A stretch of 59,496 bases of DNA from an uncultured Pelagibacteraceae bacterium. Lineage in GTDB: Bacteria; Pseudomonadota; Alphaproteobacteria; Pelagibacterales; Pelagibacteraceae. The notes beneath the pieces were generated by a model. It was given only the letters and a program-made list of their open reading frames with translations, did no database searches and was not told the origin of the DNA. The translations under genes and the position numbers were made by a program. The DNA is taken from the NCBI GenBank assembly GCA_905616445.1, contig CAJQSV010000016.1, positions 1 through 59,496 of the forward strand. The letters are read 5' to 3'. Shown piece after piece: positions 36,964 through 55,470 of this stretch (position 1 is the first letter of the stretch; every line of letters starts with the position of its first letter).

Positions 36964-37428
36964 ATGTTTTTATCAAGTTACGAAAACAAACTAGACAAAA
37001 AAGGAAGAGTTTCTGTGCCTGCTAGCTTTAGATCTCATCTAGGCTCTTTAGGTTATAATGGATTTATAGCTTATCCATCATTTAACCATGAGGCTTTAGA
37101 GGCTTGTTCGCAAGATAGAATAGAAAAACTTTCAAACACGATAGATTCACTAAATCCATTTGAAGAAAAAAGAGATTTTTTTGCAACTTCAGTTTTATCT
37201 GAAAGTGTAAGTTTACAATTTGATAGCGAGGGTAGAGTTTTGATTTCGGAAAAATTATTAAGCCACGCAAAAATAAAAAATAATATTTTATTTATTGGAT
37301 TGGGAAAAACTTTCCAAATATGGGAACCAAAATCTTTTGAAAAGTTCAAAGTAGCAGCAAGAAAAAAAGCGTATCAAAATAGATCTAATTTAAAATGGGA
37401 CAACAATCTAACAGGGGAGAAAAAATGA
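36964..37428 (+). CDS. mraZ: Transcriptional regulator MraZ
   Basis: This AbrB-like ring-forming regulator opens the division and cell wall cluster and in E. coli represses its own promoter. Two DxxxR DNA-binding motifs are seen, DKKGR (residues 11-15) and DSEGR (about 86-90). Length is 154 residues. The stop overlaps the ftsZ ATG (ATGA at 37425-37428). The operator boxes upstream support autoregulation. Confidence 0.95.
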
Positions 37429-38936
37429 CTATAAGAATAGGTGGCGGAGAACTTAAGGAATTAAAACCAAGAATTTTAGTTTTAGGTGTTGGAGGTGCGG
37501 GAGGCAACGCAGTAAATGCCATGATCGAAGGAGGTATGCAAGGAGTAGAATTTGTTGCGGTAAACACCGATGCTCAAGATTTAAAAATGAGCAAAGCCGA
37601 TGCAAGAATTCAAATTGGAACAAATCTTACAAAAGGTTTAGGAGCCGGTGCGAAACATGACATCGGACAAGCTGCTGCCGATGAATCTTTAAATGAAATA
37701 ATTAATTTTTTACAAGGCGCTAATATGGTTTTCATTACTGCTGGTATGGGTGGCGGAACTGGAACTGGAGCTTCAAGCGTAATTGCTAGAGCGGCAAGAG
37801 AGCTTAATATTTTAACTGTCGGTGTAATTACTCTTCCTTTTTCTTATGAAGGACCTAAAAGAATGCGTAGAGCAATTGAAGGAATGAATGAACTAAAAAA
37901 ACATTTAGACACTTCTATAGTTGTTCCAAATCAAAATCTTTTTAAGGTTGCAAGTGAAACAACGACATTTGAAGATTCATTTCATTTATCTAACGATGTT
38001 TTAAATCATGGCGTTCAAAGCATTACCGACCTTATGGTGAAACCAGGAATTATAAATTTAGATTTTGCTGACGTTGAAACTGTTATGAGTTCAATGGGCA
38101 AAGCTATGATGGGAACTGGAGAAGCAGAAGGAGAAAACAGAGCTTTAACCGCAACTGATTTGGCTTTAAACAATCCTTTGATAGATGATTATTCTCTTAA
38201 AGGTGCCAAAGGTTTGCTAGTAAATATAACTGGAGGAAAAGACATAACACTTTTTGAGGTAGACCAGGCCGTAAATAAAATAAGAGCTGAAGTTGATCCA
38301 GAAGCCGAGCTTATATTTGGAGCTATTAAAGATGAGTCTCTTAACGGAAAAATGAGAGTGTCTATAGTTGCCACAGCTTTAGACGGTCAAGTTGCTAGTA
38401 CGAATGGAGTGGTAAATATGGTTAGTCGTATCCAAAATAGAAATAGCGGTTATTCAGAAGGATTATTCTCTACAAGAGGGAATGTAATTCCTAATAATTC
38501 TTATAATACCTCAATTGGCGCCACCGCTTTAAAACTAGATGAACAACATGAAGTAAACTCCGAACAACAGCATTCCTTAATTGTTGAACAGAAAACTACA
38601 GTTGAGCAGGAAATTGCAGTTGAAAACGGAACAACATCATTGAATCTAAACGAAACAAACGAAGAAGTTTTTTCTGAAAACATCGATCCGATTGCGGCGG
38701 AGGAGAGTTTATTTGAATTTGATTCTATAGAACAGATCTCTTCAACAAATGATACTGCGTTAGCTTTAGAAGAAGAATATACGCCAAAGCTTTTTTCCGA
38801 AATAACCGCTGAAAGCTTAGAGAGTAATTCTTTAGAAACCGAAGAACACAAACTTTTTGATCAAGAAAACAATCAAGAAAACAATCAAGAAGATGATTTT
38901 GAAATTCCCGCATTCTTGAGAAGACAAAAGTTTTAA
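37425..38936 (+). CDS. ftsZ: Cell division protein FtsZ
   Basis: This tubulin-like GTPase forms the division ring. The glycine-rich loop [10 protein letters not shown] is at 21-30 and the tubulin signature GMGGGTGTG at about 107-115. A long Glu/Ser-rich linker (about 330-490, with a repeated [10 protein letters not shown] stretch) leads to the C-terminal peptide [11 protein letters not shown] that binds FtsA and other partners. I chose ATG 37425 (503 residues), which overlaps the mraZ stop and has the Shine-Dalgarno AGGGGAGA. The position directly behind mraZ is unusual: in most alphaproteobacteria ftsZ follows ftsA. Confidence 0.97.
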
Positions 38937-40281: not shown

Positions 40282-42004
40282 AAACAGTAAAAATTTCATT
40301 CATCAAAATCAAAAATCTTTTTTCTTTGATGATTTTCTTGAAACCAGTAAAAAACAAAAAAAGACACATAAATCAGAAATTTCAGAAGATAGGCTTTATG
40401 TTTTATTTTCTGTTTTTTTTTCTTTAATACTTATTTTTTCAATTTCTATTTTTTCTATTTCAATTCAACGATCTAATTTTGAAGAATATAAAAAAGTTGA
40501 TCAAAATTCTTTATTTCTTAGAAGAAATATAGTGGATAGAAAAGGTCAATTAATTGCAACTAATATAAATTCTTACCATGCGGGTATAAAGCCAAATCTG
40601 ATTAAGAATAAAAAAAATTTTATTCTAAACATTAAATTAAATTTTCCTGAAATTTCCCTACCAAAATTAAAAAAAAATTTACTAAATAAAAAATATTTTT
40701 ATTTAAAGAAAAGATTAACCGAGGATGAAAGCAATAAATTACGAGCTTTTGGTGAAAAGGGAATTATTTTTGAACCCTATCAAGGCAGAGTGTACCCCCA
40801 CGGACAACTTTTTAGTCATGTACTTGGTCAGACAGACGATGATAATTATGGAATTTCTGGAATAGAAAAATTTTTGGACGAAGAGATACAAAATAATGAA
40901 AAAATAAATGATCCTTTGTTTTTAACACTAGATACAAATGTGCAGTTTTTAATAAAGACTGAATTAAAAAAAGCCATGCAAGATTTTAAAGCAAATAATG
41001 CAGGCGGGTTGTTAATGGATGTTAATAGTGGTGAGATATTATCATTAGTTTCTTTACCGGATTATAATTTGAACATACGAAATGACATTTCTGATCCCAA
41101 ATACATGAACCAAATTACAAAAGCAGTTTATGAACTTGGCTCTGTATTTAAAACTTTCACACTTGCATTGGCTATTGAAGAAAATATTTTGACACCAGAA
41201 ACAATGATTCACAACATTGCAAAAAAAATTCAATGTTCTATCTATCCAATAACCGACATTCATGAATTTCCTAAAAGCATGTCAGCAGAAGATATACTAA
41301 TAAGATCTTCTAATATTGGAACTTTAATGATTGCCAGAAAAATTGGCGAAGAAAAACTAAAAAAATTTATTGAAAATTTAGGACTTTTAAAATTTTCAGA
41401 CATTGAGTTAGAAGAAGTTGGAATGCCTTTCAAATTTAAATGGGAAAAATGTAAATTAGAAACAGTATCTTACGGTCATGGAATCGGCACCACAGCTTTG
41501 CAGGCTGCTGTTGCATACGCCTCCATAACTAATGGTGGCTATATAATTAAACCAACTTTAGAATTAAAAAAAAATTTTGATAAGAAAATTCGCAAATCTA
41601 TTATTTCTAATAGTACAAGCAATAAAATAAACAAAATTTTAAGAAAAGTAGTAGATGATAAAGAAGGCACGGCCAGTTATGCAAACATCGAAGGTTATTA
41701 CGTTGGTGGAAAAACAGGTACCGCTAAAGACTACAAAGATAAAAAAAAAAATATAAATACGTTCATTTCTATATTTCCATCTAACAAACCAAAATATGTA
41801 CTCCTAGTTATTTTAGACGACCCTAAAGGTGCGCCACATATTTCTTATAAGCACAAAGGTTTAGTAAGGAAAAATATTCAAAGAACTGAAGCTGGCTGGA
41901 ATTCTGTTTATGTGGCGGGCAAAATAATAGAGAAGATTGGACCTATTTTAGCCATAAACAACGACGAGGCTTACAATACTCATGTTGTTAAAAAAAATAA
42001 TTAA
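40271..42004 (+). CDS. ftsI: Peptidoglycan transpeptidase FtsI (PBP3)
   Basis: This is the septal class B penicillin-binding protein. One transmembrane helix (about 45-65) follows a charged cytoplasmic N-terminus, then the PBP dimer domain and the transpeptidase domain with SVFK (active Ser), SSN and KTGTA motifs in order. Length is 577 residues. It overlaps ftsL by 11 bases and the murEF frame by 23 bases. Confidence 0.95.
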   Translation: MISKNSKNFIHQNQKSFFFDDFLETSKKQKKTHKSEISEDRLYVLFSVFFSLILIFSISIFSISIQRSNFEEYKKVDQNSLFLRRNIVDRKGQLIATNINSYHAGIKPNLIKNKKNFILNIKLNFPEISLPKLKKNLLNKKYFYLKKRLTEDESNKLRAFGEKGIIFEPYQGRVYPHGQLFSHVLGQTDDDNYGISGIEKFLDEEIQNNEKINDPLFLTLDTNVQFLIKTELKKAMQDFKANNAGGLLMDVNSGEILSLVSLPDYNLNIRNDISDPKYMNQITKAVYELGSVFKTFTLALAIEENILTPETMIHNIAKKIQCSIYPITDIHEFPKSMSAEDILIRSSNIGTLMIARKIGEEKLKKFIENLGLLKFSDIELEEVGMPFKFKWEKCKLETVSYGHGIGTTALQAAVAYASITNGGYIIKPTLELKKNFDKKIRKSIISNSTSNKINKILRKVVDDKEGTASYANIEGYYVGGKTGTAKDYKDKKKNINTFISIFPSNKPKYVLLVILDDPKGAPHISYKHKGLVRKNIQRTEAGWNSVYVAGKIIEKIGPILAINNDEAYNTHVVKKNN

Positions 42005-44843
42005 AAATTTTCCAATAAAAATTTCAAATATTAATATTGAAGGACTGTCTTTAGATAGCAGGAAAATAAAAAAAAATTATTTATTTTTTGCTGTTCGAGG
42101 CACAGAATCAAATGGAGAAAACTATATTTTGGACGCAATCAATAAAGGCGCAAAAGCAATCGTCTGCAGCCTAAGTTGTAAAATAAAAAACAATAAAGTT
42201 CCAATTATTAAAGTTAAAAGTATCTCTGAAGTTCTTGCTTACGCTTGTAAAACATTTTATCATGAAAAACCTAGTAATATTATTGCTGTAACAGGAACTA
42301 ATGGAAAGAGTTCAGTTGCCGAATTTTATCATCAAATCCTCACTTTGCAAAAAATTCCAGCTGCCTCTATTGGAACTTTAGGAATTAAAATTAAAAATAA
42401 AATAAAAAAAACTAACCTAACAACGTTAGACACTATCTCTCTTCATCAAGAGTTATCAAAAATTAAGAAACTTGGAATTAACAACGTAATACTAGAAGCT
42501 TCGAGCCACGGTTTGTTGCAAGGCAGACTTAATGGAATAGATTTTAAAACTGCAATTTTCACCAATTTTTCGCAAGACCATTTGGATTACCACAAAAACT
42601 TGAAAAATTACTTAGGAGCTAAATTAATCTTATTTTCTAAATTATTAAAAGAAAATCGTAATATTGTAACTGATAATAAGATTAAAGAATTTCCAAAGTT
42701 AAGGTTAATAGCAAAAAATAGAAAATTAAATTTATTTACCATAGGTAAAGAAAATTCTACTATTAAAATAAATTTACTTATAAGCAAAAATAATTTTCAA
42801 CAATTATCTTTTAATTATAATAATAAAAAATTTACAATAAAAGTTCCGTTAATTGGTTTTTTTCAAATCAAAAATTTATTGATGGCTATTCTTGCGGCTA
42901 AAATTTCAGGCTTAAATATGAATACAATTCTAAAAAATATTAAAAAAATAAAAGAAGTTAATGGTCGACTTCAATTAATTAGAACATTACCAAATAAGGC
43001 AAAAATTTTTATTGATTATGCTCATACGCCGGATGCTCTTGAAACATCTCTTAAGACAATAAAAAAACACTATAATATTAATCCAGACGTTGTATTCGGT
43101 TGCGGAGGTGAAAGGGATAAGAAAAAGAGAGCCATCATGGCAAAAGTTTGTGAAAAACACGCGAAAAAAATTTATATAACGGACGATAACCCAAGAAATG
43201 AAAATCCTAAATTAATTAGACAAATGATTATTTCTGGGTTCAAAAAAATGAAAGACGTTCAAAACATACCTTTGAGGCAAAAAGCAATTATACAAGCTGT
43301 AATTAACTCTAAACCAAATGGAATTATTCTTGTAGCGGGAAAAGGGCATGAAACTACTCAAATATATAAAAACAAAACATTAGACTCTTCAGATAAAACA
43401 ATAATCAAAAAAATTAATATTAAGCACCTTAAATATAGCAAAAATAACTACAACCAAATTTTAAATGCTGAGATTATGTACAAATTAATAAAAAAAAAAA
43501 ACATAAAGTTTGAAGGCGTTTTAATTAATTCCAAAAAGATCAAAAAAGAAAATCTCTTCATTGCAATAAAAGGAAAAAAGCATGACGGGCATACTTTCGT
43601 AAAAGAAGCATTAAAAAACAAAGCAAATTTTTGTGTTGTTAGAAAAAATATAAAAAATATAAAAAATATAAATCAAAATAAATTGATTAAATGTAGCAAT
43701 ACAATTAATTTTTTAAATCAATTAGCTGCAAAAAAAAGAGAATTCTCAAAAGCAAAAATAATTGCCGTAACCGGTAGCTCAGGCAAGACCACATTTAAAA
43801 CTTTACTTGGTAATTTATTAGCTAATTACGGAAAAACTTATTTTTCAAAGAAATCTTACAACAACCATTTTGGAGTACCTTTAAGTTTGTGTAATTTAGA
43901 GAATGATCATGAATATGGAGTTTTTGAAATTGGTATGAACAAATCTGGCGAAATCCGAAAACTTTCTAATTTAGTTAAACCCGACATAGTAGTAATCACT
44001 AACATTGGAGAAGCCCATATAGAAAATTTTCATAATTTAAACGGTATTGCAAAAGCAAAAGCAGAAATTATTGAAAATATAAATAGAGATGGTTTCTTAA
44101 TTCTCAATAAAGATGACAGGTATTTTAAGTTTCTTTCAAAAATTGCAAAAAAAAGAAAAATTAAAATTTTATCTTTTGGAATGTCAAAAAAATCTGACGC
44201 TACACTTGTTGCAAAAAAACCTTTTAAAAATCATTTCTTGCTTCATTTTAAAGTTTTAAATAAAAACGTGTTTTTTAAAGTTAAAAACATTAACTCTTCA
44301 ACTATACTTAATATATTATCTAGTTTATTAGTTTTTTCTATTTTAAATCTAGATTTATCAAAGATAGAAAATTTAATCTATCTTTTTCAATCAGTTGAAG
44401 GCAGAGGAAAAGCACACATTGTATCAAGGTATAAAAAAAAATTTCATTTTATCGATGAAAGTTATAATGCAAATCCCTCTTCGGTAAAAAATGCAATCTA
44501 CAATTTTTCCAATATAAAAAAAAATAATTCAAAAAAATATTTATTGCTTGGAGACATGCTAGAATTAGGAAAAAAATCAGACACTTATCATAAAAATTTA
44601 TCACATTTTATCAATGAAAGTGATATTGATCAGTTGTTCATATATGGGAAAAATGCATTTAAAACTTATCAAAAAACTTATAAAGCTAAACAAGGAAACA
44701 TTTTACAAAACATAAATGATTTCGATGAAGTTTTTTCTGGCTTAATAAAAAAAAATGATTATTTGATGATTAAAGGTTCAAATGCTACAGGGTTAAATAA
44801 TTTATCTAAAATAATTATTGCTGGAGACAAACATGCTTTATAG
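41982..44843 (+). CDS. murE/murF: MurE-MurF fusion: two Mur ligases in one protein
   Basis: One 953-residue frame holds two full Mur ligases. The first (about 1-480) is MurE: LSLDSRKI at 23-30, ATP loop TGTNGKSS at 104-111, and the DNPR motif at 402-405 that marks meso-diaminopimelate addition. The second (about 495-953) is MurF: LINSKKIKKENLFIAIKG, then ATP loop TGSSGKTT at 597-604 and DESYNANPSS. The link (480-495) is short. The product would add meso-DAP and then D-Ala-D-Ala to UDP-MurNAc-dipeptide. No stop or start signal splits the two halves. Similar fusions are known in some other proteobacteria such as Bordetella. Confidence 0.93.
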   Translation: MLLKKIIKNFPIKISNINIEGLSLDSRKIKKNYLFFAVRGTESNGENYILDAINKGAKAIVCSLSCKIKNNKVPIIKVKSISEVLAYACKTFYHEKPSNIIAVTGTNGKSSVAEFYHQILTLQKIPAASIGTLGIKIKNKIKKTNLTTLDTISLHQELSKIKKLGINNVILEASSHGLLQGRLNGIDFKTAIFTNFSQDHLDYHKNLKNYLGAKLILFSKLLKENRNIVTDNKIKEFPKLRLIAKNRKLNLFTIGKENSTIKINLLISKNNFQQLSFNYNNKKFTIKVPLIGFFQIKNLLMAILAAKISGLNMNTILKNIKKIKEVNGRLQLIRTLPNKAKIFIDYAHTPDALETSLKTIKKHYNINPDVVFGCGGERDKKKRAIMAKVCEKHAKKIYITDDNPRNENPKLIRQMIISGFKKMKDVQNIPLRQKAIIQAVINSKPNGIILVAGKGHETTQIYKNKTLDSSDKTIIKKINIKHLKYSKNNYNQILNAEIMYKLIKKKNIKFEGVLINSKKIKKENLFIAIKGKKHDGHTFVKEALKNKANFCVVRKNIKNIKNINQNKLIKCSNTINFLNQLAAKKREFSKAKIIAVTGSSGKTTFKTLLGNLLANYGKTYFSKKSYNNHFGVPLSLCNLENDHEYGVFEIGMNKSGEIRKLSNLVKPDIVVITNIGEAHIENFHNLNGIAKAKAEIIENINRDGFLILNKDDRYFKFLSKIAKKRKIKILSFGMSKKSDATLVAKKPFKNHFLLHFKVLNKNVFFKVKNINSSTILNILSSLLVFSILNLDLSKIENLIYLFQSVEGRGKAHIVSRYKKKFHFIDESYNANPSSVKNAIYNFSNIKKNNSKKYLLLGDMLELGKKSDTYHKNLSHFINESDIDQLFIYGKNAFKTYQKTYKAKQGNILQNINDFDEVFSGLIKKNDYLMIKGSNATGLNNLSKIIIAGDKHAL

Positions 44844-51675: not shown

Positions 51676-52611
51676 ATGAAACAGAAAACAGTTTTAGTTG
51701 TACAAGGCGGAACCTCAAGTGAAAGAGAGGTAAGTTTAAATTCAAGTAAAGCATGCACCAAAGCATTAAAAAAATTAAAATATAAAGTTATAACGTTTGA
51801 CCCTGCCAAAAAGCATTTAAGTAAAATTAAACAATATAAAAAGAAAGTTAATCTCATCTTCAATTCTTTACACGGTAGTGACGGAGAAGACGGGACAGTC
51901 CAAAGTTATTTTGAGTATTTTAAAATACCTTATACGCACTCGGGTATAATTTCTTCAATGAATGCAATGGATAAAATTATTTCAAAGAAAATTTTTAAAA
52001 AAAGCAATCTTTTAACCCCAAATTATATTGCTTTAAATTCAGTTAATTATTTAAAATATTTAAAAGAAAAATTTTCAAGAAATTTTAATTTTAATTATCC
52101 AGTGGTGGTCAAGCCCTCTAACGAAGGGTCTAGTATTGGTGTGGAAATCTGTAAAAATTTTAATCAATTAAAAATATCTGTAGTTAAACTATTAAAAAAT
52201 TACAAAACTTTAATCGTAGAGAATTATATTGCAGGCCAAGAAATTCAAGTTGCAGTTATTAATGGTAAAGCCCTAGGAGCAATTGAACTAAAACCCAAAA
52301 GAAAATTTTACGATTATAAAGCCAAATATTCTAAGTCCGCTCTCACAAAACACATTATGCCAGCTAATATAAATAAAAATAATTATAATGCTGTTTTAAA
52401 ACTAGCTGAAAAAGCACATAAAGCTATGAACTGCAAAGGTGTAACTCGATCTGACTTTAAATTAATTAATAATAAGTTTTATTTATTAGAAATAAACACT
52501 CAGCCAGGAATGACAAATCTATCCTTAGTACCTGAAATAGCAAAATATGTAGGAATGACGTTTAAAGAACTTGTAAAAAAAATTGTTGATGACGCAAGTG
52601 TTAATAAATGA
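51676..52611 (+). CDS. ddl: D-alanine-D-alanine ligase
   Basis: This ATP-grasp enzyme makes the D-Ala-D-Ala dipeptide used by the MurF half of the fusion. VVQGGTSSEREVSLNS, NSLHGSDGEDGTVQ, VVKPSNEGSSIGVEI and LEINTQPGMTNLSLVP give the standard order. I chose ATG 51676 (311 residues), 4 bases after murB. A start 21 bases upstream would overlap murB and adds an unlikely segment. Confidence 0.95.
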   Translation: MKQKTVLVVQGGTSSEREVSLNSSKACTKALKKLKYKVITFDPAKKHLSKIKQYKKKVNLIFNSLHGSDGEDGTVQSYFEYFKIPYTHSGIISSMNAMDKIISKKIFKKSNLLTPNYIALNSVNYLKYLKEKFSRNFNFNYPVVVKPSNEGSSIGVEICKNFNQLKISVVKLLKNYKTLIVENYIAGQEIQVAVINGKALGAIELKPKRKFYDYKAKYSKSALTKHIMPANINKNNYNAVLKLAEKAHKAMNCKGVTRSDFKLINNKFYLLEINTQPGMTNLSLVPEIAKYVGMTFKELVKKIVDDASVNK

Positions 52612-53276
52612 AAAAACCTTTAAAAATATATTTTCTTATATTTATTTTTTTTATTTTTTCCACTTACAATATCAAGCATGATGAAAAAAGTATTAGTATT
52701 TTTTTTCCTATAAAAGAAATTTTAATAGATAATAACGTAGGTGCTAATTTTTTGGAATTAAAAAATGATTTTAGTTTTTTAATGAACACAAATTTGTTTT
52801 TTTTGAACAAAGAAAAAATTTTAAAAATTGTAAATAAACATGACTTTATATCAAATATTCAATTAAAGAAAAAATACCCAAACACTTTAAACGTTTCTAT
52901 AGTTGAAAAAACACCAGTCGCAACACAGATAATAAATAAAAAAAAATTTTATATAACAAAAGACAATGAAAAAATAAATTTTATTGATCTTAAAATATAT
53001 GAAGATTTACCTTCAATTTTTGGTAAGTACAAAAATTTTAATATTTTTTATAGTGATTTAGAAAAAAATAACTTTAAAATAAATAGAATTAAAGCTTTTT
53101 ACTATTTTGATGTTGGTAGATGGGATATTGTTCTTAAAAATGAAAAAGTTATTAAACTTCCAGAAAAAAATTATTTAGATCTTTTATTAAAAATTAATTT
53201 AATGTTAGATGACAATAATTTTTCTCAGTACAAGGTTTTTGATTTTAGGATAAAAGATCAATTAATTTTACAGTAA
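52608..53276 (+). CDS. ftsQ: Cell division protein FtsQ
   Basis: This 222-residue bitopic membrane protein has one transmembrane helix (about 6-22), then a POTRA-like domain (about residues 35-95, with the INL-type stretch ISNIQLKKKYPNTLNVSIVEKTPVA) and a beta domain. The POTRA segment supports FtsQ/DivIB. It is shorter than most alphaproteobacterial FtsQ proteins, mainly in the cytoplasmic N-terminus. It sits between ddl and ftsA, the usual place. Confidence 0.85.
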   Translation: MKKPLKIYFLIFIFFIFSTYNIKHDEKSISIFFPIKEILIDNNVGANFLELKNDFSFLMNTNLFFLNKEKILKIVNKHDFISNIQLKKKYPNTLNVSIVEKTPVATQIINKKKFYITKDNEKINFIDLKIYEDLPSIFGKYKNFNIFYSDLEKNNFKINRIKAFYYFDVGRWDIVLKNEKVIKLPEKNYLDLLLKINLMLDDNNFSQYKVFDFRIKDQLILQ

Positions 53277-53277
53277 C

Positions 53278-54477
53278 ATGCAATTAAACGAACCTTATTT
53301 GATCATAGACATAGATGGTGAAAAAGTAATATTTTTTGTTGTATTATTTAACGAAAAAAAAAATTTTAAGGTATTAAAAAAAATTATTTTAGAAACAACA
53401 GGAATTCAAAATGGTCGTGTAATCAATATTGAAACTTTTAGTCAATTACTTAAACAGACTATTAATTCTATTGAAGACGATATAAATTTTTTCTTTTCCA
53501 ATGTAGCTATAGTGATTAATCCAAATAAAATTAATTGCTTAAATGTTAGCGGTTATAAAAAATTAAATGGATCACAAATAACAAATGATGACATAGGTTA
53601 TATTTTAAACGATATAAAAAAAATTATCTTAGAAAGCGAAAACAATGATTATTTAGTTCATCTTTTTAACTCAAATTTTTCACTAGATAGCGACAACTTA
53701 GAAAATTTACCTATCGGTTTATTTGGCGAGTTTTACAACCAAAACATGACCTTTTTTTTAGTAAATAAAAATATTATTAAAAATATAAAATCAGTTTTTA
53801 ATAATTGCGGATTAAATATAGAAAAAATAATTTTAAAAACTTTTGCTGAAGGAATTAATCTTTTATCAAATAATCAATCAGATAAAAATTTTACAATCAT
53901 CAGATTGCAAAAAAATAGAATTAGCGTTTCTTTATTTAAAAATAAATCATATGTTTTTACTGAAAGTTTTAACTTTGGCTTTAATTTAATTATTAGAGAT
54001 ATATCTAAATTATGTTCCCTTAAAATCGAAGAAGTGGAGAATTTAATGAAAAAAATCGAATTAAAAAATGTTATCAAAAACAACAATGAGACTTATTTAG
54101 AAAATTCTTTTTTTTATGTTTCACCTTATAGAAAAATAAAATATCAATTAATTTTAGATATAATTACAGCACGCATAGAAGAGTTGTTTGAGATTTGTTA
54201 CAAAAAAAATACAAACATCAAGAACCTAAAAAACAGCGATACAATCTATATTTACGTAGATTCATCTGAATATTATAAAAATATTCAATATGTTCTAGAA
54301 AACGGCAAATATACCTCTTTAGAATGCATCTTTAATAGTAACATTGAACAGAATTTCCTAGGAGGAGTTAATGGAGCCTGTGAACTCATTGGTAAAGGCT
54401 GGGAAAAAGAAGCAATTCCAATATCCCATAAAAAAAAATCAATAATTTCTGATTTTTTTTCAAGGTTGTTTAGCTAA
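53278..54477 (+). CDS. ftsA: FtsA, strongly diverged, with lost nucleotide-binding motifs
   Basis: The 399 residues fit FtsA in length, position (after ftsQ) and layout: an N-terminal actin-like strand (LIIDIDGEKV at 8-17), the 1C domain with GRVINIETFSQLLKQTINSIED and LENLPIGLFGEF, and a C-terminal linker with an amphipathic helix (KKKSIISDFFSRLFS, 385-399) for membrane binding. The second phosphate loop, normally DIGGGT, reads RLQKNR at 209-214, and the adenosine loop (usually TGGA) reads YVDSSE near 326-331. So ATP binding in the usual way is unlikely. Confidence 0.8.
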   Translation: MQLNEPYLIIDIDGEKVIFFVVLFNEKKNFKVLKKIILETTGIQNGRVINIETFSQLLKQTINSIEDDINFFFSNVAIVINPNKINCLNVSGYKKLNGSQITNDDIGYILNDIKKIILESENNDYLVHLFNSNFSLDSDNLENLPIGLFGEFYNQNMTFFLVNKNIIKNIKSVFNNCGLNIEKIILKTFAEGINLLSNNQSDKNFTIIRLQKNRISVSLFKNKSYVFTESFNFGFNLIIRDISKLCSLKIEEVENLMKKIELKNVIKNNNETYLENSFFYVSPYRKIKYQLILDIITARIEELFEICYKKNTNIKNLKNSDTIYIYVDSSEYYKNIQYVLENGKYTSLECIFNSNIEQNFLGGVNGACELIGKGWEKEAIPISHKKKSIISDFFSRLFS

Positions 54478-54543: not shown

Positions 54544-55470
54544 ATGTTGGATTTATTTCAAAAAACAATTTCAAAACAAACAGAATTCAAAGGAATAGGA
54601 TTACACAATGGGCTAGAAAGTGTAATTAAAATAATTCCAGCTGATGAAAATTTTGGAATAGTTTTTAAAAGAACTGATCTTGAGCTAAACAATATTGTAA
54701 AAGCGAATTTTGAAAACGTTTCTTCAGCCAAGCTTTGCACAACAATTCAAAATAGTTTTAATATCAGTATATCAACGGTCGAGCACTTGCTGGCAGCACT
54801 TTATATAACAGGCATTGATAACGCATTGATAGAAATAAATGCTTCTGAAGTTCCAATTATGGATGGTTCTTCTAAAGAATTTGTTGAAACTATTTTAAAA
54901 ATTGGAGTTAAAAAACAAAATTCAAAAAGAAAATATTTAAAAATCTTAAAAAAATTTGAATTTAAAGAAAATGAAAAATTTATTTCTATAGAACCAAATG
55001 AGAATAGTTTAAATGTTGATTTTCAATTAGTCTACTCTAACAATGTGATTGGTAAACAAAAAAATAAAATTAATTTTTCTGATAAAGATTTATCTAATGT
55101 TTACACATCAAGAACATTCTGTTTATATGAAGATATTGAACAAATACGTAAAATTGGTTTAGCTAAAGGAGGATCTTTAGATAATGCAATAGTCATAAAA
55201 GACAATGAAATTTTAAATTCTACAGGACTCAGAAATAACAAAGAATTTGTTAATCATAAAATTTTAGACTTAGCTGGCGATTTTTTATTATCAGGTTCCA
55301 GAATTTTAGGTAGTGTAACTTGTATTCAAGGAGGTCACAGCTTAAGCAATTTATTTCTAAGGACTTTATTAAAAGATAAATCAAATTATTCTATAATTGA
55401 AATAGAGGAATCTAAAACTATAGAATCATATTTTAAAACACCAACAAACAAGCTAGCGGTTAATGCTTAA
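54544..55470 (+). CDS. lpxC: UDP-3-O-acyl-N-acetylglucosamine deacetylase
   Basis: This zinc enzyme makes the first committed step of lipid A synthesis, so the cell has a lipid A outer membrane. The zinc ligands are seen in STVEHLLAALY, and in HKILDLAGDFLLSG (His and Asp); the catalytic His is in GGHSLSN. FKGIGLHNG near the start is typical. Length is 308 residues. Start ATG 54544 fits family start and the promoter. Confidence 0.96.
   Translation: MLDLFQKTISKQTEFKGIGLHNGLESVIKIIPADENFGIVFKRTDLELNNIVKANFENVSSAKLCTTIQNSFNISISTVEHLLAALYITGIDNALIEINASEVPIMDGSSKEFVETILKIGVKKQNSKRKYLKILKKFEFKENEKFISIEPNENSLNVDFQLVYSNNVIGKQKNKINFSDKDLSNVYTSRTFCLYEDIEQIRKIGLAKGGSLDNAIVIKDNEILNSTGLRNNKEFVNHKILDLAGDFLLSGSRILGSVTCIQGGHSLSNLFLRTLLKDKSNYSIIEIEESKTIESYFKTPTNKLAVNA

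Follow-up and report, generated by a model that had tools for sequence, protein, structure and literature searches.

An ftsA-like gene encoding a protein of 399 aa (hereafter, P0001) lies in the dcw cluster of an uncultured Pelagibacteraceae bacterium (SAR11, a group of very small marine bacteria), within the window, that is, the whole stretch of 59,496 nucleotides analysed here. The genes of the cluster were named by position and recognisable sequence, and their order in the window is mraZ-ftsZ-rsmH-ftsL-ftsI-murE/F-mraY-murD-ftsW-murG-murC-murB-ddl-ftsQ-ftsA-lpxC (Table 1). The start codon of ftsA is one base past the stop codon of ftsQ. Unlike in E. coli, no ftsZ is located between ftsA and lpxC; it directly follows mraZ (36964-38936), ~14 kb before ftsA, and the ftsZ-ftsA spacing is similar in the other Pelagibacteraceae examined. 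One 953-aa ORF of the cluster (41982-44843) reads as a MurE-MurF fusion.

Table 1 Features of the ftsA locus and of the related short genes; positions are those of the window, residues those of P0001.
Feature	Position	Strand	Basis or remark
ftsZ, adjoins mraZ; canonical tail peptide at the C-terminal end	37395..38936	+	
ftsQ	52608..53276	+	ORF, gene order; identified from its place and length
ftsA-like gene (P0001, 399 aa), nucleotide site lost	53278..54477	+	ORF, TIGR01174, solved relatives
Former phosphate-1 loop, DIDGEKV, residues 11-17	53308..53328	+	Canonical (D/E)IG(S/T)xK
Subdomain 1C (SHS2), residues 81-161	53518..53760	+	Best conserved subdomain of the clade
K187, at the position of E. 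coli A188	53836..53838	+	Clade-specific Lys
Former phosphate-2 loop, RLQKNR, residues 209-214	53902..53919	+	
R299 to E302 (E. coli R300/E303), FtsZ-binding subdomain 2B	54172..54183	+	Kept
Former adenosine motif, YVDSSE, residues 326-331	54253..54270	+	Canonical TGG(A/G)
Linker G374-W375...P381, then putative C-terminal membrane segment KKKSIISDFFSRLFS (385-399)	54397..54474	+	
lpxC	54544..55470	+	ORF; lpxC also 3' of ftsA in relatives
Mini-FtsA loci of genus g122 (L154, L155, L157, L159, L160, L162-L170, L178-L182)	Between ftsQ and lpxC		

P0001 matched the FtsA profile TIGR01174 with E=8.8e-37 over profile positions 5-309 of 371, at 127 bits and thus below the cut-off of 175.85, and the SHS2_FTSA profile (PF02491) at residues 84-151 with E=9.4e-5 (23.1 bits, just under the cut-off of 25.4). 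The latter match, together with the alignment with canonical FtsA, indicated that the 1C subdomain is present. The fold matches were FtsA and PilM, and solved E. coli-type FtsA structures were matched at 1e-12; solved FtsA structures include those of T. maritima (1E4F/4A2B), S. aureus (3WQT), V. maritimus (7Q6F) and E. coli (7Q6D). The PilM profile PF11104 scored only 18.6 bits (cut-off 27), and the genomic context is the dcw cluster, not a pilus operon. No relatives of P0001 were found in a scan of viral contigs. By its solved relatives, its dcw place between ftsQ and lpxC and, at a score below the cut-off, its family, P0001 is an orthologous FtsA, as the initial annotation had proposed.

The nucleotide-site residues of P0001 differ from those of E. 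coli FtsA at nearly every position compared (E. coli numbering first). On the phosphate-1 side, E14 is replaced by D11, G16 by D13 and T17 by G14, with K19 kept as K16, and the remaining changes are A188 to K187, D210 to R209, G212 to Q211, T215 to R214, G336 to D328 and G337 to S329. The initial annotation had read a partly changed phosphate loop 1, a replaced second phosphate loop and an adenosine loop without its GG pair, and the letters and residue numbers it quoted for all three are exact. Its emphasis on the missing DIGGGT holds in part: the motif is absent from P0001, but GGGT itself is no requirement for ATP binding. Nucleotide-bound crystal structures exist for the FtsA of both T. maritima and S. 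aureus, which read NLGYNFTG and DIGEDVT at the phosphate-2 place, and GGGT is therefore a poor criterion. Both proteins retain the first phosphate-2 Gly, which P0001 lacks. The common core comprises the phosphate-1 acid and Gly, the phosphate-2 acid or Asn and Gly, and the adenosine Gly, and P0001 has the phosphate-1 acid only. Read in this way, the telling sign is the loss of all nucleotide-site glycines, not of GGGT alone.

A pocket rebuilt from shifted residues was also sought by inspecting the sequence, and no glycine-rich loop was found nearby; residues 193-342 contain a single Gly, G234. The AlphaFold models of the whole protein (3-sequence alignment, pLDDT 54, pTM 0.40) and of lobe II alone (pLDDT 47) were too weak to judge the pocket.

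To see how far these changes extend, we aligned 61 distinct FtsA sequences, 52 from the same genus (g1) and 9 from the sister genus g120. The comparison set comprised FtsAs from 30 alphaproteobacteria of other families, from other Pelagibacteraceae genera and from the second family of the order (f2). All 61 members of the g1 and g120 clade share the loss of the ATP site. Neither adenosine glycine (G336, G337) is present in any of them (0/61 each), phosphate-2 D210 is lost in 59 (retained in 2), phosphate-2 G212 in 51 (retained in 10) and phosphate-1 G16 in 59 (retained in 2), while the phosphate-1 acid is retained in 47 of the 52 g1 sequences. The three residues to either side of the lost glycines are glycine-free in 60/61 at the adenosine pair, 51/61 at phosphate 2 and 57/61 at phosphate 1.

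For P0001 alone, 2 of 12 pocket columns conserved in alphaproteobacteria are kept, against 22 of 88 others (p=0.73), and the claim that its pocket is more diverged than the remainder of the protein was dropped; the argument was therefore moved to the level of the clade, with equally diverged controls. In FtsA the pocket is as a rule far more conserved than the remainder, and the clade as a whole has lost this difference. The g120 sequences keep 1.67 of the 12 pocket columns and the full-length g122 sequences 7.11, although outside the pocket the two groups keep 28% and 27%, respectively; for the clade the pocket value is 1.5-1.7. Pairwise identity in the adenosine loop, the highest of the segments measured in other alphaproteobacteria (0.80), is 0.27 in the clade, whereas that of 1C is higher in the clade (0.54 against 0.44) and that of the FtsZ helix stays at 0.50. 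The opposite shifts of the adenosine loop and 1C show that the pocket is no longer under constraint and that 1C is under more of it. In the FtsZ tree, g1 and g120 form one Pelagibacteraceae clade (support 100/99), thus a single loss would be enough. Taken together, the alignment strongly supports a loss of the ATP-site residues throughout the clade rather than an oddity of one genome, and nucleotide binding has very probably been lost from these proteins.

No second canonical ftsA, the existence of which would bear on this reading, was found in the genome of origin or in near-complete relatives. A PF14450 search of the former, which is 64% complete, gave no match; the result comes mainly from the near-complete relatives, which have one ftsA each, their remaining matches being MreB-like. 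As for other anchors, searches of 18 near-complete relatives for ZipA and SepF gave no match, and ZapA was found in 17 of the same 18.

Several other parts of the protein are kept. The equivalents of R300 and E303, which have a role in FtsZ binding in E. coli FtsA, are present in 61/61 clade sequences and are invariant also in the other main groups. The FtsZ-binding location in FtsA is subdomain 2B (PMC9098913). E69, H129, D138, P146 and D242 are likewise found in all 61, and W375 (61/61), N311 (61/61) and K187 (58/61) are fixed specifically in the clade. Mean identity within the clade is 0.54 for 1C versus 0.24-0.46 for the remaining subdomains. All 61 aligned tails conserve the position and the hydrophobic and basic pattern of the C-terminal segment; its helical moment reaches a marginal p=0.045 over residues 388-399 and misses significance over 385-399, a weak statistic for a stretch of 12-15 residues. 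Just before the tail, the motif GWxxE(A/V)(I/V/L)P (residues 374-381, 54397-54420) is fixed in the clade and similar in g121. Between P0001 and its nearest relative (L068, 82% identical), dN/dS is 0.094 overall, 0.07 in the former phosphate-2 region and 0.05 in 1C, and the low values overall and at phosphate 2 indicate that P0001 is under purifying selection. The tail peptide of the FtsZ encoded in the window is canonical, as in the other Pelagibacteraceae FtsZs examined.

P0001 is thus probably a pseudo-ATPase FtsA that serves as a nucleotide-independent adaptor or tether. The protein retains the actin-like lobes, 1C, the 2B helix that would bind FtsZ and the putative membrane tail, with polar, nearly glycine-free sequence in place of the phosphate and adenosine loops. 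Its tail would insert into the membrane, the 2B helix would hold FtsZ tails and 1C would face the late divisome proteins, and no ATP-driven polymer cycling would occur. The initial annotation had read the gene as a scaffold-only FtsA in which the ATP site seems lost and FtsZ tethering is possibly kept, and the clade bears this out as far as sequences can: the site is lost in 61/61, and R300/E303, the FtsZ tail peptide and the putative membrane segment, for which the residues quoted (385-399) are exact and which recurs as the same kind of tail in 61/61, are all kept. From these features we infer that P0001 binds FtsZ, and it may tether FtsZ without ATP cycling. In E. coli FtsA, the substitutions E14R, S84L, A188V and D210A abolish complementation and impair localisation to the ring (PMC10213515); one would thus expect the clade changes to inactivate the E. 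coli protein, and compensation must have occurred in the clade.

The cleft is probably held shut by contacts within the protein, and a candidate for these involves the residue at the position of A188. In E. coli FtsA, E14, S84, A188 and D210 lie 2-8 Å from the Mg2+ (PMC10213515). The A188 position is a Lys in 58/61 clade FtsAs versus 0/99 other FtsAs, and it is paired with an acid at position 14 in 54 of the 61; the pair is broken in six, and one sequence (L204) carries the charges swapped, as Lys14/Asp188, the sole such case. The ammonium group of K187 could take the place of Mg2+ and form a salt bridge to the old phosphate-1 acid, D11, which would join both sides of the cleft without ATP and leave it closed by intramolecular contacts. 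Such a lock, proposed on the conservation of the pair and one charge swap, is a tentative idea that we consider rather less probable than not.

The genus g122, also a sister genus and probably Pelagibacter, shows a different change. Among 30 sampled genomes, 9 have a full-length gene (~368-388 aa) between ftsQ and lpxC and 19 have one of only 222-236 aa; of the other two genes, one runs off the end of its contig and one is split between frames. The latter (L153, G282:C1:191500-195500, a closed genome) is a mini-ftsA in two frames of 76 and 175 aa, from either a sequencing error or a pseudogene. The mini-FtsA (~233 residues) has 1A and 1C joined straight to the membrane tail, with 2A/2B removed as a block: in a profile-profile comparison (E=1.4e-36, 99.9%) short and long forms match in 1A and 1C, after which the alignment jumps to the tail. 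On the FtsZ tree the two forms are interleaved (at least three changes by parsimony, but only one forced by strongly supported branches), therefore the deletion of 2A/2B may have occurred more than once. The FtsZ tail of Pelagibacteraceae (L214-L232) is canonical even in members whose FtsA is without the FtsZ-binding subdomain, a counter-point to the adaptor reading of P0001. Since 2A/2B is deleted and the FtsZ tail is the same, g122 cells with a mini-FtsA may have another binder of the FtsZ tail in place of 2B.

Partial changes were also seen elsewhere. In family f2 (L048-L067, L131-L152), the phosphate-1 Gly (DIRADK) and the phosphate-2 Gly (DIQKNKT) are mostly lost and the adenosine TGxGA is kept, which is, judging by these motifs, a separate and partial loss of the site. 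Three FtsAs from other alphaproteobacterial families, L196 (G137, a 0.6 Mb genome), L194 (G181) and L198 (G214), have 3 of the 5 core site residues, and their nucleotide sites may also be failing. As read from residues and domains, several SAR11 lineages are losing the ATP-handling parts of FtsA, by different routes.

The main rival to a tethering adaptor is that P0001 no longer tethers FtsZ and acts in the divisome through 1C and the membrane tail, with contacts such as FtsN or FtsQ, while another protein anchors the Z-ring. This is kept alive by the unchanged FtsZ tail peptide in mini-FtsA cells, which implies another tail binder there, and it would fit both 1C as the most conserved part (with the low dN/dS given above) and the reduction of many g122 members to lobe I (1A and 1C) plus the tail. 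A protein free of FtsZ, however, would not need the R300/E303 pair that all 61 sequences have, nor the well-kept helix around it, and the relatives searched for ZipA and SepF yielded neither. We consider the loss of tethering unlikely, though worth keeping in view.

That P0001 still binds nucleotide through shifted or unusual residues is quite improbable. The phosphate-1 acid persists in most g1 sequences, along with the Lys in P0001, loops without GGGT bind ATP in the Thermotoga and S. aureus proteins, and the structure model of P0001 is weak; against these stand the glycine-free surroundings of all three former loops in most of the clade, G234 as the only Gly in the relevant stretch of P0001, and the Lys at the Mg2+ position. 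Decay of ftsA under relaxed selection toward loss might be suspected from the fast divergence, with 20% retention, outside the pocket, of the columns conserved in alphaproteobacteria, and from the loss of whole domains in g122, but it is hardly credible given a full-length frame intact in 61/61 distinct sequences, a dN/dS of 0.09, and the invariant and clade-specific residues listed above.

The tethering adaptor can be placed beside known proteins. With canonical FtsA, P0001 shares the ftsQ-lpxC operon place, the 1A-1C-1A-2A-2B-2A order, the FtsZ-binding R/E pair, a putative C-terminal membrane segment and the fold, and it differs in having lost the site glycines and the phosphate-2 acid altogether, in the clade Lys at the Mg2+ position and in a score below the curated TIGR01174 cut-off. 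The full-length FtsAs of g122 (e.g. G253), g6, g123 and g127 are similar in gene place, length and divergence but mostly keep the phosphate-1 (D/E)-x-G, the phosphate-2 (D/E)-x-G and the adenosine Gly, and are therefore probably still ATP-binding. PilM, among the best fold matches, resembles P0001 in its fold with a 1C subdomain and in having the cytoplasmic tail of a membrane protein as a partner; unlike P0001, which lies in dcw and scores as FtsA, it binds ATP/ADP and sits in pilus operons. The g122 mini-FtsA has the same gene place, a similar membrane tail and no possible FtsA-type ATP site, but its 2A/2B block is deleted whereas P0001 retains both subdomains with R299/E302. We found no report of site loss in SAR11 FtsA or of a mini-FtsA in the open-access literature; notice in a subscription journal or preprint is possible.

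What FtsA contributes to division by binding and turning over ATP is a matter of debate. It is conceivable, at somewhat under even odds, that the Pelagibacteraceae have dismantled the divisome ATPase in two ways, in the g1 and g120 clade by a Lys-acid bridge that replaces Mg-ATP and fixes one state and, in g122, by deletion of the ATP-binding half, apparently repeatedly. If true, some of Earth's most abundant cells would divide without an FtsA nucleotide cycle. E. coli mutants of the ATP site are non-functional, yet an entire clade appears to live without the site. The clade would thus be a natural separation of the adaptor function of FtsA from its nucleotide function, with the half-size g122 protein as a minimal version, and it suggests that a widespread FtsA can work as a plain scaffold.
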